Made by a program: the position numbers and the translations under genes
Notes under the pieces: generated by a model
The model's database searches: none
What the model saw: the letters and a program-made list of their open reading frames with translations, nothing else
Told to the model about the DNA's origin: nothing
DNA from: Candidatus Endomicrobiellum mastotermitis
Lineage (GTDB): Bacteria > Elusimicrobiota > Endomicrobiia > Endomicrobiales > Endomicrobiaceae
DNA length: 60,209 nucleotides
Direction: 5' to 3'
Assembly: GCA_031272445.1 (NCBI GenBank)
Contig: JAISTT010000015.1
Location: 1 to 60,209, forward strand
Shown: positions 39,311-47,243 of the stretch, one piece after another
How the letters are laid out: each line of letters begins with the position of its first letter
How positions within the stretch are numbered: position 1 is the first letter of the stretch

Positions 39311-39343
39311 CTAAGAAAAAACATGACTGATAATTTTCATGTT
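39311..39343 (-). terminator. Intrinsic terminator of the glucuronate operon
   Basis: Read on the minus strand, AACATGA (39343-39337) and TCATGTT (39326-39320) form a 7-bp stem around a 10-base loop, followed at once by a run of Ts. The stem overlaps the uxuB stop codon. It is the best-formed terminator in the window and marks the end of the kdgA-to-uxuB direction of reading. Confidence 0.6.
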
Positions 39344-40962
39344 CCCAGATATTTTTTTAAAGTTTTGCGAACCGCTCCTTTTCCGACAAGCATTTCTTTG
39401 AAATATTTTTCTATTTTTTTCCCAAGTCCTACTGTATAAAGGTTTATGCCAAATATTTTTTCATTTGATAAAATCTCTACTAATTTACCGTTTGATGAAT
39501 TTGGCTGTCCCACTTTTACATCTTTTAAGGAAGCTTGTAAGTATGGCATGAGTGGGTCAGGACTTAGAGTTAAAGGATTGTTGTTGTCATCTCTGGCTAT
39601 AAGATATCTGCACCAACCGGCTATTGTTAAGGGTATAAATATAAGCGAGTTTATGTTAAGGTCGGGGCGTTTTAAATAGAGTTTGATTGTTTCTCCGAAA
39701 CGTATGCTGAGCTTTTGAGATGTGTCTGTTGCAATGCGCTGGGGAGTATCTGGTATATTGGGGTTTGGAAAGCGTACATTAATAACTTCATTTATAAAGT
39801 CAAAAGGTTTGATGATTCCTGGGTCAACTACAACTGGCATACCTTCGTCATAACCTATTTTTGAGATTAATTTAATAAGATCTCCATCCTTTAGTTCGTC
39901 TGAGATGGATGTAAACCCTAGTATGCAACCGAATATTGCAAGTGCAGAATGTAAAGGATTTAAACAAGTGCATACTTTCATCTTTTCTACTTTATCTACA
40001 GTGTTTTTGTCGCAAAAATAAACTCCCACTTTTTCAAGTGCTGGACGTCCATTTGGAAAAGTGTCTTCGATAACGAGATACTCTGCTTCTTCTGTGTTGA
40101 CGAAGGGAGCAATAATAGAATTTTTAGACGTTTTTATAATTTGAGTACTAATAAAACCTATTTCATCAAGTCGCTGTTTTATTTTTTGAGAAGGATATGG
40201 TGTAATTTTATCAATCATACTCCACGGAAAGGAAACTTTTTTACCATCTGAAAGATAGTCAATAAACTCTTGATTTACGTGTTTACGCAATTTCCATTCA
40301 TTTGCAACGGTTATCACCGCGGCTTTTAGTTTGTCTCCATTATGAGAAAAATTGTCAGTACTTACAAGTGCTATTGGGGTTTTATTGCTTTTATAGCGTT
40401 CATAAAGCAAAGCGGTTAGTTTGGTCATAGCACTTACTGGTTTGACGATTCCTTCATCAAATTCTTTTAATATATCTGTCTTAAATAATCCGTTTATTGT
40501 TTTGAGATCATAGCCTTTTTCTGTAATTGATAATGTTGCTATTTGTAGAGAAGGCGCTGCAAATATGACTTTAAGTCGTTCCCATGCGACTTTATCTGTG
40601 CTATCAGCCGCTATACTCTCAGTAATACTTGAAATTACGTGCAGTTTTATGTTCCCATCCGCACACGTAGTAACTTGTAAGCTAAGGTTATCGTAAGGCT
40701 TGTATGCTTTTTCGATGATTTCATAATCAAAAAGTTCAGCAACAATTATTCCTTTGTTAGATAGTTTTTGTTCAATGAGCTTTTGAGCGATGACACAATG
40801 AAAACCTTTAAAGAGGTTACCAGCCCCAAAATGAATCCATATGGGAGTATCAAAAGTTTTTTTGTAAAGCTCTGAATCGTCAATATCTGTAACATGAATA
40901 TTGTTTCTTTCAAAGTTTATTTTATTCTCTCTGACATACTTTTTATTTTTTAATTCTAACAT
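39337..40962 (-). CDS. uxuB: Fructuronate reductase (mannitol dehydrogenase family)
   Basis: NADH-dependent reduction of fructuronate to mannonate, step 2 after isomerisation. It has an N-terminal Rossmann fold (IHFGAGNLFKGFHCVIAQ at about 48-65) and the long-chain polyol dehydrogenase motif K-x5-N-x2-H in KVCTCLNPLHSALA. At 541 aa it resembles the longer UxuB type. The ribosome-binding site is AAGGGTG. Linkage to uxuA and uxaC supports fructuronate rather than mannitol or tagaturonate as substrate. Confidence 0.87.
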   Translation of the reverse strand: MLELKNKKYVRENKINFERNNIHVTDIDDSELYKKTFDTPIWIHFGAGNLFKGFHCVIAQKLIEQKLSNKGIIVAELFDYEIIEKAYKPYDNLSLQVTTCADGNIKLHVISSITESIAADSTDKVAWERLKVIFAAPSLQIATLSITEKGYDLKTINGLFKTDILKEFDEGIVKPVSAMTKLTALLYERYKSNKTPIALVSTDNFSHNGDKLKAAVITVANEWKLRKHVNQEFIDYLSDGKKVSFPWSMIDKITPYPSQKIKQRLDEIGFISTQIIKTSKNSIIAPFVNTEEAEYLVIEDTFPNGRPALEKVGVYFCDKNTVDKVEKMKVCTCLNPLHSALAIFGCILGFTSISDELKDGDLIKLISKIGYDEGMPVVVDPGIIKPFDFINEVINVRFPNPNIPDTPQRIATDTSQKLSIRFGETIKLYLKRPDLNINSLIFIPLTIAGWCRYLIARDDNNNPLTLSPDPLMPYLQASLKDVKVGQPNSSNGKLVEILSNEKIFGINLYTVGLGKKIEKYFKEMLVGKGAVRKTLKKYLGT

Positions 40963-40976
40963 AAAAACACCCTTAG

Positions 40977-42059
40977 TTATTTTTTATTTTGTTCATCTAA
41001 CGTATCCCAAATACCGAGAATATACATGATACCTAAAGCTCTATCATAAAGACCATAACCGGGACGTAATCCTTGACGAGATTCTTCATTCCAAATATGT
41101 CTTCCATGATCTGGACGAATATAGTACTTAAATCCTAATTTATGAAATGTGCTTACAATCTCTACAATATCTAGAGAACCGTCACAAGAGCGATGTGAAC
41201 TTTCTATAAAATCTCCATTTTCAAAACGTTTTATGTTTCTGACATGAGCAAAAAATATTTTATCATGATAGGTTTTTATTATGTCTATGACGTCATTTTT
41301 ATTTGACGATCCTAGTGAACCGGTACATAGGGTAAGACCGTTTGATGGACTATTAACGAGATTTAAGTATCTTTGAATATTTTCTTTAGAAATTATAAGT
41401 CTTGGTAGACCGAAGATACTCCATGGTGGATCATCTGGATGAATAGCCATTTTTATGCCGCTTTCTTCTGCAACTGGAATAATTTCTTTTAAAAAGTGTT
41501 TTGCATTTTCAAAAAGATTTTCTATAGTAAATCCTTCATAAGCTTTAAACAATTCTCTTATTTTTGAAAGTCTTTCAGGTTCCCAGCCTGGCATCGATAA
41601 TAGTCCTTTTTGTTTTGATAGATTGTCTAAAAATTCATAAGGATTAAGACTATCAATTTTTGCCTTTTCATAAAAAAGTGCTGTTGAGTCGTCAGGAAGA
41701 GCTTTATATAAGTCTGTCCTCGTCCAATCAAAAACAGGCATAAAATTATAACATACAACTCTTACACCAGCCTTTCCTAAATTGCGTAAAGTATTTTTAT
41801 AGTTTTCAATATACTTACTTCTTGACGGAAGTCCGAGCTTTATGTCCTCATGCACATTTACGCTTTCAACTACTTCATTATTAAAGCCTGCTTTAGAAAG
41901 GCAAATTTTAACTTGATTGATTTTATCCATTTCCCAATGATCGCCTGCTGGCACATCATGAAGTGCCCATACTATCCCCTTAACTCCTGGTATTTGTTTA
42001 ATGAAATTTAATGGAATTGTATCAAGTTTTTCTCCATACCATCTAAACGTAATTTGCAT
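40977..42059 (-). CDS. uxuA: Mannonate dehydratase
   Basis: Dehydrates D-mannonate to 2-keto-3-deoxygluconate; a Mn/Fe-dependent TIM barrel of 360 aa. TFRWYGE at the N-terminus, the metal-site block H207-PDDPP and the later RPDHGRHIW are family signatures. The ribosome-binding site TTAGGAGGAG is strong. It lies 14 bases upstream of uxuB on the same strand. A 135-base gap with a palindrome separates it from kdgK. Confidence 0.95.
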   Translation of the reverse strand: MQITFRWYGEKLDTIPLNFIKQIPGVKGIVWALHDVPAGDHWEMDKINQVKICLSKAGFNNEVVESVNVHEDIKLGLPSRSKYIENYKNTLRNLGKAGVRVVCYNFMPVFDWTRTDLYKALPDDSTALFYEKAKIDSLNPYEFLDNLSKQKGLLSMPGWEPERLSKIRELFKAYEGFTIENLFENAKHFLKEIIPVAEESGIKMAIHPDDPPWSIFGLPRLIISKENIQRYLNLVNSPSNGLTLCTGSLGSSNKNDVIDIIKTYHDKIFFAHVRNIKRFENGDFIESSHRSCDGSLDIVEIVSTFHKLGFKYYIRPDHGRHIWNEESRQGLRPGYGLYDRALGIMYILGIWDTLDEQNKK

Positions 42060-42194: not shown

Positions 42195-43220
42195 TTATCT
42201 TTGGACTCGTCCAGAGGCATCTCCGCTTACCAATTTCAATACCTCATCTACTGATACTTGATTATAATCTCCTTCAATACTATGTTTTAAGCAACTTGCG
42301 GCAACGGCAAATTCTAATGCGTCTCTAGATGAAAAATCGTTGATGAGGGAGTAAATTAGTCCAGCTCCAAAAGAATCTCCTCCACCCACTCTGTCAACTA
42401 TATGTACTAAGTATTCTTTGCTAAAATAATATTCTTTCCCATCATAAAGCATAGCAGCCCAACGATTATCGTTTGCTGAAATGGAGCTTCTTAAAGTTAT
42501 AGCGACTTTTGAGAAATTGAATTTGTCAGCTGCTATTTTGGCAACTTCTTTGTAATCTTCGTGGTTAACTTTACCTAATGTTATGTCGCTATGCCTTGCT
42601 TTTATTCCAAATACATCATCTATGTCTTCTTCATTCGCTATGCAAATATCAACAAATTTGCAAATCTCTCCCATAATTTTTCCAGCTTTTTCTTTAGACC
42701 AAAGCTTTCTTCTGAAGTTTAAATCGCAGCTTATAGTAATTCCTTTTTCTTTTGCGATTTTACAAGCTTTAAGACAAGTTTCTGCTGTCTTGTCACTTAA
42801 TGCTGGAGTTATTCCAGTGAAGTGAAACCACTGTGTTTTTTCAAAAATTTTATTCCAGTCAAAGTCTGTCTCTTCCGCTTCAGCTATAGCTGAGTGTTTT
42901 CTATCGTATATTACTTTTGAAGGTCTTTGACTCGCACCTTTTTCAAGAAAATATATTCCTATTCTTTCGCCACCTCTTGCAATAAATGAAGTATCAACGC
43001 CACGTTCTCTTAAAGAATTTACTCCAGTCTGTCCTATTTCATGCTCTGGTAGTTTACTGATAAAACGTGCATCTAACCCAAAGTTTGCCAGTGATACTGC
43101 AACGTTTGCTTCGCCTCCACCATACGTTGCCCCATAAGTCTTTGTTTGTAAAAAACGATAATATCCATCAGGGGCAAGTCTCAGCATTAGTTCTCCGAAA
43201 GTTACGACTCTCTTTGGCAT
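42195..43220 (-). CDS. kdgK: 2-keto-3-deoxygluconate kinase
   Basis: Phosphorylates 2-keto-3-deoxygluconate to KDPG with ATP. PfkB/ribokinase fold, 341 aa. The N-terminal substrate part has YGGGEANVAVSLANFG, and the C-terminal ATP/catalytic motif is VGGGDSFGAG at 278-287 with Asp282 as the expected base. AAAGGAGAAT precedes the ATG. Its place between exuT and uxuA makes the substrate assignment firm. Confidence 0.93.
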   Translation of the reverse strand: MPKRVVTFGELMLRLAPDGYYRFLQTKTYGATYGGGEANVAVSLANFGLDARFISKLPEHEIGQTGVNSLRERGVDTSFIARGGERIGIYFLEKGASQRPSKVIYDRKHSAIAEAEETDFDWNKIFEKTQWFHFTGITPALSDKTAETCLKACKIAKEKGITISCDLNFRRKLWSKEKAGKIMGEICKFVDICIANEEDIDDVFGIKARHSDITLGKVNHEDYKEVAKIAADKFNFSKVAITLRSSISANDNRWAAMLYDGKEYYFSKEYLVHIVDRVGGGDSFGAGLIYSLINDFSSRDALEFAVAASCLKHSIEGDYNQVSVDEVLKLVSGDASGRVQR

Positions 43221-43336: not shown

Positions 43337-44740
43337 TTATATATTTTTTATAGGCTTAAATTTAGGAACAAGCGACCTCATTATACACCATGCTAAAACG
43401 TAAGCAACAGAGCAAAAAGTGAACATTATAGTATATCCTGTTTCAGTGTGTCCAAGCGATTTGTAATAATCAAATAGCCAACCGGCAGCTTTTGAAGTGA
43501 CAAGCCCCCCAAATCCTCCGGCCATACCGCCAATTCCAGTTACAGAAGCCACGACTTTTTTAGGAAACATATCAGATACTGTAGTGAATATGTTTGCTGA
43601 CCATGCCTGATGTGCAGATGCTCCAATTCCTATTAGAATAATAGGGTACCAATAGCTTATTGAACCTAAAGGTTGCGCTAAAAGGACTAGAAGAGGAAAA
43701 AGCGCTATGACAATCATAGCTGTCATGCGTGCGGAATAAATATTTATACCTTTATTGATAAAGTAAGTAGGAAACCATCCTCCGCTTATGCTACCTATCA
43801 TGGTCATACTGTATAAGACTGCCAAAGGTATCATTACTCCTGTTCCCGTTATGTTATATTTGGTTTTGAGATAGGCTGGTAACCAGAATAGAAAAAACCA
43901 CCAAACTCCGTCGGTTAAAAATTTGCCTATGGCAAAAGACCATGTTTGCTTATATCCGAGAAGACGAAACCACTTAACTCTATATTCACTGCTTTCTTCG
44001 TTGTTACTCTTGAGAGTTTGTTCTTCTTCGTCGCTTAATATATAATTGTATTCTATTTCACCTATTCTTCCTTTTTCTAAGAAATTTTTAGGACTATCAT
44101 AGTAACGTTTCCAAAATATTAACCATATGAATCCTACAGCACCTACTATAATAAATGCACTTTCCCAACCAAAATATCTTGCTAACCATGGCACGCTAAG
44201 TGGAGCGGCAATTGCTCCTATGTTAGATCCAGAGTTAAATATACCTGTCGCAAAAGAGCGTTCTTTTTTTGGAAACCATTCTGCTGTAGTCTTAATAGCT
44301 GCCGGAAAATTTCCTGCTTCGCCTATACCTAGCACAAAGCGTGCGAGTATGAATCCTATTACGGAAATGGGTATTAAAATACCTATTTTAGAGAGTGGAG
44401 GCGAAAGTATACTTCCTATTTGTATGGCAAAAGCGTGTATTATAGCGCCTAATGACCATAACACCAGTGACCATACATATCCTTTTTTTGTGCCAAGCCA
44501 ATCTACAAATCTTCCTGCGAAAAGCAGTGATATTGCATAAGATATCTGAAATACCGAAGTAATATTAGCATAATCGCTATTAGTCCAGTGAAATTGTTCA
44601 GATAAGTATGGTTGCAACAAGCTTAATACTTGTCTATCTAAATAGTTTATAGTAGTGGCAAAGAAAAGCAATGCGCATATAGTCCATCTGTAACTGCCTA
44701 CTTTTTGACTAGCCTTTGAAACAGCTTCATTATGCACCAT
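43337..44740 (-). CDS. exuT: Hexuronate transporter, MFS (ExuT type)
   Basis: Proton-coupled importer of glucuronate/galacturonate, 467 aa with about 12 membrane segments. The family start RWTICALLFFATTINYLDRQVLS and FVLGIGEAGNFPAAIKTTAEWFP are typical of the anion:cation symporter ExuT/GudP group. A cytosolic loop (about 215-250) is highly charged. GAGGGAAAT precedes the ATG. It lies inside the glucuronate cluster, which fixes the likely substrate. Confidence 0.92.
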   Translation of the reverse strand: MVHNEAVSKASQKVGSYRWTICALLFFATTINYLDRQVLSLLQPYLSEQFHWTNSDYANITSVFQISYAISLLFAGRFVDWLGTKKGYVWSLVLWSLGAIIHAFAIQIGSILSPPLSKIGILIPISVIGFILARFVLGIGEAGNFPAAIKTTAEWFPKKERSFATGIFNSGSNIGAIAAPLSVPWLARYFGWESAFIIVGAVGFIWLIFWKRYYDSPKNFLEKGRIGEIEYNYILSDEEEQTLKSNNEESSEYRVKWFRLLGYKQTWSFAIGKFLTDGVWWFFLFWLPAYLKTKYNITGTGVMIPLAVLYSMTMIGSISGGWFPTYFINKGINIYSARMTAMIVIALFPLLVLLAQPLGSISYWYPIILIGIGASAHQAWSANIFTTVSDMFPKKVVASVTGIGGMAGGFGGLVTSKAAGWLFDYYKSLGHTETGYTIMFTFCSVAYVLAWCIMRSLVPKFKPIKNI

Positions 44741-44780: not shown

Positions 44781-46187
44781 TTAAAGATCGAATTTAAAAT
44801 AACGAACGGCGTTATCGTAAGATATATCCTCAATTATTCTAGACAGTACTTTAATATCATTAGGGTACTCACCATTTTCAACCCATTCGCCTATTAGGTT
44901 ACATAATATACGTCTGAAGTATTCGTGCCTTGCATAAGATAAGAAACTACGAGAATCTGTAAGCATGCCAACGAAATTGCTTAGAATTCCTAGATTTGCA
45001 AGAGAAGTGAGTTGGTCTATCATACCAGTTTTATGATCATTAAACCACCAAGCAGATCCCTGTTGTATTTTACTCAACGTTGGAGCGGCTTGGAAGCATC
45101 CCAATATTGTTCCTATGACAGCGTTATCATTGGGGTTTAAACTAAATATTATTGTTTTTGGAAGTTGATCGATGGAACTAAGGGCGTTAAGTAAGTCTGC
45201 GATCTGTGTGCTTGGAGCAAAATTATTTATACAGTCATATCCCATGTCTGGACCAAATTTGTCAAATACTAGTGTATTGTTATTGCGTTTACAACCATAA
45301 TGCAATTCCATAACAAGGTCATTCTTATGATATTCTTGTCCGGCAAATATCATAAAAGCAGTTTTATATTTCGACTCTTCTTCTTTAGTAAGGGTATCTC
45401 CCTTTAACTTTTTCTCAAATATTGTCTCTACCTCTTTTTCAGAAGCTGTGACGTACGTAATATATTCTATGGCATGATCCGTTGCGCGACAACCCAAAGA
45501 TATAAAAAATTCAAGTCTTTTCTTAAAGGCTTTTTTTAAATCTGCGAAGGATGTTATTTTAATATTGCTTGCTTTTGAAAGTTGGCTTATGTAATTTATG
45601 AAAATAGGTTGTTCTATGTTTAGCGCTTTATCAGGACGCCAAGCTGGAATAATCTGTACGTCAAAAGATTTATCTTCTTTAATTTTTTGATGCCATTCAA
45701 GAGTATCTATAGGATCGTCTGTAGTGCATATTAGTTTAACTCCTGATTGTTTTATTATTCCGCGGGCAGACATAGATTTTTCTCTTAATTTTCTGTTGCA
45801 TAATTCCCATACTTCTTGTGCGGTTTCGCTGTTTAGGACACCCTCATAATTAAAATACTTTCTGAGTTCAAGATGACTCCAGTGGTAAAGAGGATTTCCG
45901 ATAGCCCTTTCAAGAGTTTCTGCCCATTTTTGAAATTTTTCTCTAGCCGGAGCATTACCTGTAATATAGCTTTCTTCTACTCCATTAGAACGCATTTGTC
46001 GCCACTTATAATGGTCGCCATCTAACCATATTTGGTTTATGTTTTCAAATTGTCTGTCTTGAGCTATTTCCTTAGGACTAAGATGGCAGTGATAATCTAC
46101 TATAGGTTTTTTAGATGCATATTTGTGAAAAAGTTCTTTTGCTGTTTCTGTAGAAAGTAAAAAATCTTTGTCAAGAAATTTTTTCAT
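44781..46187 (-). CDS. uxaC: Glucuronate isomerase
   Basis: Converts glucuronate to fructuronate (and galacturonate to tagaturonate), the first catabolic step. 468 aa, amidohydrolase-like barrel. IVDYHCHLSPKEIA carries the H33-x-H35 metal motif; LICTTDDPIDTLEWH and SFLSYARHEYFRRILCNLIG near the end are characteristic. AGAGGAAAAT precedes the ATG. No altronate-branch genes (uxaA, uxaB) are nearby, so glucuronate is the likely substrate. Confidence 0.95.
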   Translation of the reverse strand: MKKFLDKDFLLSTETAKELFHKYASKKPIVDYHCHLSPKEIAQDRQFENINQIWLDGDHYKWRQMRSNGVEESYITGNAPAREKFQKWAETLERAIGNPLYHWSHLELRKYFNYEGVLNSETAQEVWELCNRKLREKSMSARGIIKQSGVKLICTTDDPIDTLEWHQKIKEDKSFDVQIIPAWRPDKALNIEQPIFINYISQLSKASNIKITSFADLKKAFKKRLEFFISLGCRATDHAIEYITYVTASEKEVETIFEKKLKGDTLTKEEESKYKTAFMIFAGQEYHKNDLVMELHYGCKRNNNTLVFDKFGPDMGYDCINNFAPSTQIADLLNALSSIDQLPKTIIFSLNPNDNAVIGTILGCFQAAPTLSKIQQGSAWWFNDHKTGMIDQLTSLANLGILSNFVGMLTDSRSFLSYARHEYFRRILCNLIGEWVENGEYPNDIKVLSRIIEDISYDNAVRYFKFDL

Positions 46188-46274: not shown

Positions 46275-47243
46275 TTAGTTGCTTTTTTGCAGTAAATGAA
46301 TGGCGAAACCATTTATTTCTTTTTCTAAATATACAAATTTTATATTATTGTTTGCATCGTATTTGGCGGTTTTATAATTAAAACTGACTCCTTTTTTTGT
46401 TAAATGGTATAGAGATCTTTCAACGCTGTTGGTGACTATTGCAATATGTCCGTTTGTACCGTGACAAGGTGGTTCCATAATTTCTAGATGCTCACTTGCA
46501 AAAACAGAAGAAGAAGTTTCTCTTTTTACAAAACCAAAAATATTTGAAAATAAATCTGCCGTTTCTTTTACTTGGGATTTGTCCTTTGAATTAATGCATG
46601 TATGAGCCACTTCAAAACCCAAAATTGCTGACACAGCTTCTTTTGAGAGTTTTGTTATGGTTGTAAAATCATCCTTATTAATTAGTTCTTTACTTGCTAT
46701 CCAGCTTCCTCCGCAAGCGATTACTTTTTTAAAACTTAAATATGAGCTTATGTTTTTTAGATTAATACCGCCTGTTGGCATAAAATTCATATTGGGATAC
46801 GGGGCCGATAGTGATTTTATCATATTTATTCCACCTATGCTTTCGGCTGGAAAAAACTTTACAGTATCAAGACCTAGTTCTAAAGCTGTTTCTATGTTAC
46901 TTGCACTTGAACATCCTGGAATTATAGTTATATCCTTTTCAATGCAATATCTCACTATTTTAGGATTTAGTCCTGGGCTTACTATAAATTTTGCTCCTGC
47001 ACAAATCGCTTCGTCAACCTGTTGAATTGTTAAGATTGTTCCAGCTCCGACTAACATTTGAGGAAGTTCTTGAGAGATGGCTTTAATGGATTCTTTTGCT
47101 GCTTGCGTTCTGAATGTTATTTCGGCACAGTTAATTCCGCCTGTTCTAAGTGCTTTTGCAAGTGGTATTGCATGGTTTACGTTATCCAGAATGATAACAG
47201 GGACAATTCCAATTCTCGCAATTTCTTTTAATGATTCATTCAT
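46275..47243 (-). CDS. kdgA: KDPG aldolase with a C-terminal VOC-like domain
   Basis: Cleaves KDPG to pyruvate and glyceraldehyde-3-phosphate. Residues 1-205 are the class I aldolase, with Glu41 and Arg45 in CAEITFRTQAA and the Schiff-base Lys129 in TVKFFPAES. Residues 210-321 form a second, glyoxalase/VOC-like domain (EVAHTCINS, GHIAIVTNSVERS, FAIHLL). The usual enzyme is about 210 aa, so the extra 110 residues are notable. It is first in the cluster with a strong GGGGGAG ribosome-binding site. Confidence 0.9.
   Translation of the reverse strand: MNESLKEIARIGIVPVIILDNVNHAIPLAKALRTGGINCAEITFRTQAAKESIKAISQELPQMLVGAGTILTIQQVDEAICAGAKFIVSPGLNPKIVRYCIEKDITIIPGCSSASNIETALELGLDTVKFFPAESIGGINMIKSLSAPYPNMNFMPTGGINLKNISSYLSFKKVIACGGSWIASKELINKDDFTTITKLSKEAVSAILGFEVAHTCINSKDKSQVKETADLFSNIFGFVKRETSSSVFASEHLEIMEPPCHGTNGHIAIVTNSVERSLYHLTKKGVSFNYKTAKYDANNNIKFVYLEKEINGFAIHLLQKSN

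Follow-up and report, generated by a model that had tools for sequence, protein, structure and literature searches.

The gene that concerns us here lies on the minus strand of the window, by which we mean the whole stretch of 60,209 nucleotides that was analyzed. It belongs to an Endomicrobiellum-type symbiont (Elusimicrobiota) of the termite gut and is the first gene of a minus-strand run in which UxaC, an MFS transporter, a KdgK-type PfkB kinase, UxuA, and a reductase of the mannitol-dehydrogenase family follow (Table 1). Taken together, these genes look like a hexuronate pathway whose last enzyme is KDPG aldolase. For the reductase (39337-40962, minus strand), the best NCBIfam model is D-arabinitol dehydrogenase, at 127.9 of the 600 bits needed, and it is operon context alone that points to fructuronate reductase as its product.

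Table 1. Features of the fusion gene and of the genes that follow it (positions in the window)
Feature	Position	Strand	Basis
eda-VOC fusion gene, 322 aa, ATG start	46275..47243	-	ORF reading, Pfam/NCBIfam, AlphaFold2
KDPG/KHG aldolase domain, residues 10-199	46647..47216	-	PF01081 E 7e-70; genome search matches same place
Lys129 codon, putative Schiff-base lysine, motif VKFFPAE	46857..46859	-	motif residue; counterpart of E. coli Eda Lys133
VOC-superfamily domain, residues 205-322	46278..46631	-	AlphaFold2 secondary structure; hhalign to VOC profile
His214 codon, putative metal ligand 1 (GloA His5)	46602..46604	-	48/48; aligns with first GloA strand
Glu254 codon, putative metal ligand 2 (GloA Glu56 strand)	46482..46484	-	48/48; least sure pairing of the four
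His266 codon, putative metal ligand 3 (GloA His74)	46446..46448	-	48/48; alignment to GloA
His316 codon, putative metal ligand 4 (Glu122 in GloA)	46296..46298	-	His in 48/48; alignment
uxaC, glucuronate isomerase, next operon gene	44781..46187	-	PF02614 E 1.8e-205
MFS transporter, probable hexuronate importer	43337..44740	-	PF07690 E 3.7e-56; best NCBIfam D-galactonate transporter, below cut-off
kdgK-like PfkB sugar kinase	42195..43220	-	PF00294 E 3e-34; NF041633 kinase half 592.5 bits, cut-off 700
uxuA, mannonate dehydratase	40977..42059	-	PF03786 E 1.8e-150
uxuB-like mannitol-dehydrogenase-family reductase, 541 aa	39337..40962	-	PF08125/PF01232; NCBIfam models below cut-off

Hexuronate use in Endomicrobiellum, acquired from Lachnospiraceae, is described in PMC11257099, and PMC8809381 locates glucuronate genes in related symbionts. 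The scan of genome contigs returned one close relative (83% identity), from "Candidatus Endomicrobiellum glyptotermitis." The window's own assembly is 795 kb and 85.9% complete.

The aldolase half is readily recognized. PF01081 scores 234.9 bits against a cut-off of 27.8 (Pfam), and the eda model TIGR01182 spans residues 9-205 with 259.1 bits against 156.05 (NCBIfam). In structural comparison of the aldolase domain, the best six PDB entries give Z scores of 32.8-34.6 and an rmsd of 1.1-1.4 over 208-209 residues, at 38-46% identity. The first-pass annotation had called the active site intact, and all seven motif residues (E41, R45, T69, P90, K129, T157, and S180) are indeed found; their catalytic roles are presumed from E. 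coli Eda, whose Lys133 we take to be the counterpart of Lys129. The KHG/KDPG aldolase Eda (PF01081, TIGR01182) thus shares the whole N-terminal domain, the active-site motifs, and the fold with the window protein, which differs in its extra 115-residue C-terminal VOC domain. By family, the N-terminal half is a class I aldolase of the KDPG type, and it would be expected to cleave KDPG. The KHG/KDPG aldolase/sugar kinase fusion NF041633 is likewise built on KDPG aldolase, but there the partner is a kinase instead of a VOC domain; its kinase half matches the KdgK of the operon.

The C-terminal domain and its putative metal site

Residues 205-322 have no Pfam match. NCBIfam offers a weak glyoxalase-I match over residues 257-321 (E 0.023), and the protein misses the cut-off of TIGR00068 (glyox_I), with 14.6 bits against 120. 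The AlphaFold2 model, built from 32 aligned sequences, has a mean pLDDT of 93.4 over the whole protein and a pTM of 0.88. Its predicted elements are, in order, strand 211-218, helix 222-236, strands 246-250, 253-256, and 265-271, helix 274-283, and strands 288-295, 301-306, and 313-319. These correspond to two predicted beta-alpha-beta-beta-beta modules, the doubled arrangement that marks a VOC domain, and nothing in the predicted secondary structure points to a different fold. A fold search with full-length models was uninformative on this domain; the aldolase barrel fills the matches listed, with no VOC chain among them, and a viral library was no more informative.

The domain was also compared by profile, using hhalign on 35 of the domains and 15 VOC proteins. 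The alignment of the two profiles reached 96.6% (E 6.7e-10, score 58.6), against scores of 12.2 for a reversed profile and at most 16.9 for 20 column shuffles. The best sequence match of the domain profile among solved structures is methylmalonyl-CoA epimerase, itself of the VOC superfamily (PF13669; 3rmu, E 0.0026), but just about 45 residues align; PF13669 matches 2 of the 25 intact fusions at E <= 1, at best with E 0.0046. The assignment of an aldolase plus a VOC-type domain made in the first-pass annotation is therefore borne out, with PF01081 covering residues 10-199 and with sequence profile and predicted topology supporting the placement of residues 205-322 in the VOC superfamily.

A spaced pattern of histidines had been noted in the added part. 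Ten residues are invariant in all 48 domains aligned: His214, Asn218, Phe248, Glu254, Gly262, Gly265, His266, Tyr305, Phe313, and His316. Four of them, H214, E254, H266, and H316, may form a metal site; their conservation and the predicted topology are observed, and inspection of these positions across the homologues found no loss. The closest frame of reference is glyoxalase I GloA (PF00903), to which the domain is related by VOC profile and whose metal ligands we take to be His5, Glu56, His74, and Glu122. Its first three places are occupied here by His, Glu, and His, with the Glu pairing unsure. In the 15 comparison VOC proteins, the His5 column holds His in 12 and the His74 column in 11; the Glu122 column holds Glu in 13, with gaps in the other 2, and the Glu56 column, in a gappy stretch, holds Glu in 2 only. 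The metal ligands of glyoxalase I are His/Gln-Glu-His-Glu. The domains of the present family read H-E-H-H in place of H-E-H-E, with His and not Glu as the fourth putative ligand in 48 of 48.

One position sets the window copy apart: it has Glu at residue 257 (46473-46475), where the other 47 of the 48 domains have Lys. This is possibly an early change in the lineage of this endosymbiont.

Spread of the fusion and decay of its aldolase half

The VOC domain was matched at E <= 0.01 in 47 of 340 Elusimicrobiota genomes. We left out G020, G022, and G335, whose matches have E values of 0.008-0.0095 and contain internal stops, and counted the remaining 44, all with E of at most 2e-24. Of these, 18 belong to the genus of the window organism and 26 to another Elusimicrobiota family, here called f15. 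KdgA had been described as longer than the standard aldolase, and because the domain recurs in these 44 genomes, and in other records as well, the added stretch of about 115 residues is real coding sequence. From the 44 genomes, 43 ORFs could be extracted (a contig end truncates that of G256). Every one has an aldolase or aldolase-like half ahead of the domain, with only a marginal resemblance in L038 and L039. In other genera, eight Elusimicrobiota genomes have aldolases in frames of 220-287 residues, and a ninth (G194) has one in broken pieces; the genome scan gave no VOC-domain match in these nine, nor did a recheck of seven of the loci.

The aldolase-VOC fusion is not unique to the window organism. 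The expectation that such fusions occur elsewhere was correct, for besides f15 there are fused copies in a Subdoligranulum record (L034) and in two fecal records of unannotated host (L056 and L057), together with standalone copies in Collinsella (L033) and Subdoligranulum (L035). These five records came from plasmid and phage collections, and the spread in Bacillota is barely sampled by them. Scans of viral contigs gave no VOC-domain match and one aldolase record (L127), without a VOC match. L056 and L057 (MT836066 and MT838159) are labeled "Bacteriophage sp." and carry the aldolase-VOC fusion; L056 further encodes a kdgK-family gene, an aminotransferase, and an amidohydrolase, and both records look like fragments of bacterial chromosomes. 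The Collinsella copy (L033:4666-5339), which already bears the annotation "VOC family protein," directly follows an orphan PTS IIB gene. In the domain tree, one f15 copy (L007, from G089) clusters with the small Endomicrobiellum clade of the window (98/92, on a long branch), and its placement away from other f15 copies suggests horizontal transfer.

The aldolase half has not fared equally well everywhere. Taking "intact" to mean that the first six motif residues are kept, we count 25 intact fusions in total, with Ser at the seventh position in 23 and Thr in 2. Among the 43 Elusimicrobiota ORFs, 22 are intact and 21 are without catalytic residues, the latter all from f15, where they make up 21 of the 26 fusion-bearing genomes. 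Of these 21, 17 have lost both the lysine and most of the barrel's second half; L031, L040, and L044 keep the lysine but are missing other residues, and L036 is of full length without the lysine. The remnants are still recognizable as aldolase-like: PF01081 matches 15 of the 21 at E <= 1, hhalign against the intact aldolase gives a probability of 94.8-100% in seven of eight subgroups and 58% for L038/L039, and the model of the L029 remnant aligns with KDPG aldolases over 159 residues (Z of about 17, rmsd 2.5-2.6).

The pathway appears to have gone with the catalytic residues. UxaC is present in eight of nine tested genomes with an intact fusion versus none of the 21 with a degenerate one, and KdgK of the window type (E <= 1e-20) in nine of nine versus none of 21. 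The nine comprise G000, three further members of its genus (18 genomes), and every one of the five f15 genomes with an intact fusion; as all genomes are drafts, any single absence is uncertain. Within the PF01081 family, to which the search for a replacement aldolase refers, no other match at E <= 0.001 was found in the 21 degenerate genomes (drafts, 72-99% complete). In the domain tree of 48 rows, the degenerate label needs two changes on well-supported branches, which reads most simply as two losses of the aldolase half; a single loss, with later regain by recombination, may instead have occurred.

Gene context of the degenerate forms gives no functional lead. A cinA-family gene lies nearby at six loci (one identified by Pfam, the rest by BLAST clustering), and a sulfatase-family gene, ABC-2 transporters, and others are also found. 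We considered whether an internal start might yield a free VOC protein. A Met stands just before the domain in 19 of 25 intact and 19 of 21 degenerate ORFs, but a Shine-Dalgarno-like core precedes it within range in 3 of 19 and 1 of 19, compared with 16 of 25 and 15 of 21 for the called ORF starts, and this rarity leaves the idea unsupported.

Selection was estimated separately for the two halves. Of 14 close degenerate pairs, 10 have a defined dN/dS for both halves, and dS is saturated in one half or both in the other four. In those 10, the VOC half has values of 0.019-0.074 and the N-terminal half 0.136-0.290, with the VOC half lower in every pair; the saturated pair L038/L039 goes in the opposite direction, with a VOC dN of 0.161 above 0.091 for the N-terminal half. 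Among 10 intact pairs (VOC 0.082-0.364, N-terminal half 0.074-0.220), five have the lower value in the VOC half. Eight of the 10 come from reduced Endomicrobiellum genomes, which may be under weaker selection; the two from f15 (VOC 0.096 and 0.082, N-terminal half 0.074 and 0.094) are nearer to the degenerate ones. Pairs share members and so are not independent. The degenerate aldolase half is relaxed, not neutral, and for that reason probably still serves folding or assembly. That the degenerate halves are mere pseudogene noise is unsupported, as both halves have dN/dS below 0.3 in those degenerate pairs for which it is computable.

What the VOC half may do

Where the pathway exists, the N-terminal aldolase would split KDPG into pyruvate and glyceraldehyde 3-phosphate, the last step of glucuronate use, and the fusion would couple the activity of the VOC domain to this cleavage. 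The reading that we favor, with moderate confidence, is that the VOC half is an independent putative metal domain with its own reaction on a small oxo-compound, kept after the aldolase decayed. We infer an independent, metal-dependent activity of this kind because the domain is tightly kept after the loss of the pathway. Most likely, the oxo-compound would chelate the metal through two neighboring oxygens; candidate substrates are an alpha-keto acid or an alpha-oxoaldehyde of central carbon metabolism, and the chemistry may be the proton transfer (enolization) usual in VOC isomerases. Such an activity would be useful without the pathway too. In f15, the aldolase half has decayed, apparently in two lineages, with the VOC half remaining under strong selection. 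A product-side or general keto-metabolite is favored over KDPG itself as the substrate. The activity would also be dispensable, because other genomes of the same genera are without the gene.

The first-pass annotation had offered KDPG, methylglyoxal, and a sensor function as possible roles. A domain that helps the pathway would act on 2-keto-3-deoxy sugar acids (KDG and KDPG), as an epimerase, a tautomerase, or an anomer-opening enzyme feeding the aldolase. The aldolase or aldolase-like half borne by all 43 extracted ORFs speaks for it, and so do the neighbors: a kdgK-family gene lies directly beside the fusion or domain gene in L034, L046, L050, and L053-L056, and the standalone copy of L035 sits next to an IlvD/EDD-type dehydratase, a LacI-family regulator, and an epimerase-like gene. 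A 2-keto acid, moreover, would readily chelate the metal of a VOC site. The recurrent sugar-acid context is the main evidence against the reading that we favor, as it suits a sugar-acid substrate more than a general one. Set against a pathway helper are the 21 genomes in which the domain stays strongly conserved and in which no further PF01081 match, UxaC, or window-type KdgK was found, and we regard such a helper as unlikely, if still deserving of some weight. Our guess is that the sugar-acid context and survival outside the pathway would be reconciled if the substrate were a product or side product common in keto-acid metabolism. A sensor or allosteric domain, binding a metabolite and tuning the aldolase, would suit a fusion to a central-pathway enzyme, and VOC domains can act as binding proteins. 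It is nevertheless very improbable given that the domain persists, under tighter constraint than its partner, in proteins whose aldolase half is without catalytic residues, and that all four putative metal-site residues are invariant; in purely binding VOC proteins, such as the bleomycin-resistance proteins, these residues are not so kept. Because the domain is tightly kept after the pathway is gone, helping with KDPG or sensing for the aldolase is unlikely to be all that it does, and neither of these two suggested roles can be the whole story for the 21 genomes with a decayed aldolase.

Methylglyoxal deserves a separate discussion. The domain might detoxify methylglyoxal arising from the triose phosphate that the aldolase releases, as a lactoylthiol lyase or as a thiol-independent variant. 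In keeping with this, the domain profile is related to those of glyoxalase I and methylmalonyl-CoA epimerase, and the first three GloA ligand types are retained; triose phosphates arise with or without the aldolase, which would fit the survival of the domain; in addition, G100 has a methylglyoxal synthase and no PF00903 match. The fourth ligand, however, is His in 48 of 48 domains, and the enzymes expected around a glyoxalase are scarce: methylglyoxal synthase occurs in 4 of 30 genomes, a GCS2-type ligase (the only type looked for) in 1 of 30, and the glyoxalase II C-domain (HAGH_C) in 0 of 30, a search whose control also misses several well-known genomes. PMC11257099 reports methylglyoxal synthase as absent in Endomicrobiaceae, in agreement with our count, and its main text contains no word starting with "glyoxal." In two genomes the synthase lies no more than about 3 kb from a separate PF00903 VOC gene (G095:C2:114663-117657 and G098:C7:319165-322162), likely a dedicated glyoxalase pair; of the genomes with the synthase, the PF00903 search took in G095, G098, and G100 and left out G089. 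The scarcity of glyoxalase II, synthase, and GCS2 ligase disfavors a glutathione-type glyoxalase. Taken as a whole, we judge a glyoxalase role improbable.

Returning to an independent reaction on an oxo-compound, we put forward, tentatively and as something that may well prove wrong, a bolder version: an H-E-H-H family of VOC enzymes that, in gut anaerobes, carries out a novel reaction on a keto-metabolite of central metabolism, moves from phylum to phylum as a fusion with KDPG aldolase, and in one family of Elusimicrobiota has outlived that aldolase, whose half would then be a dead scaffold. An aldolase fusion and a VOC domain are known kinds of finding. Among the literature matches listed, which cover open-licence literature, there is no paper on a KDPG aldolase-VOC fusion, no description of an H-E-H-H site, and no report of a VOC domain surviving the decay of its aldolase.

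It is important to remember that a further function may lie behind an annotation that names just KDPG aldolase, and that some aldolase-family matches in gut Elusimicrobiota are without catalytic residues, which calls for caution in annotation. In the degenerate f15 proteins, nature has supplied inactivation mutants of the aldolase, and the job remaining to them is probably that of the VOC domain. What began as a curiosity of annotation has thereby become a testable case of enzyme discovery.
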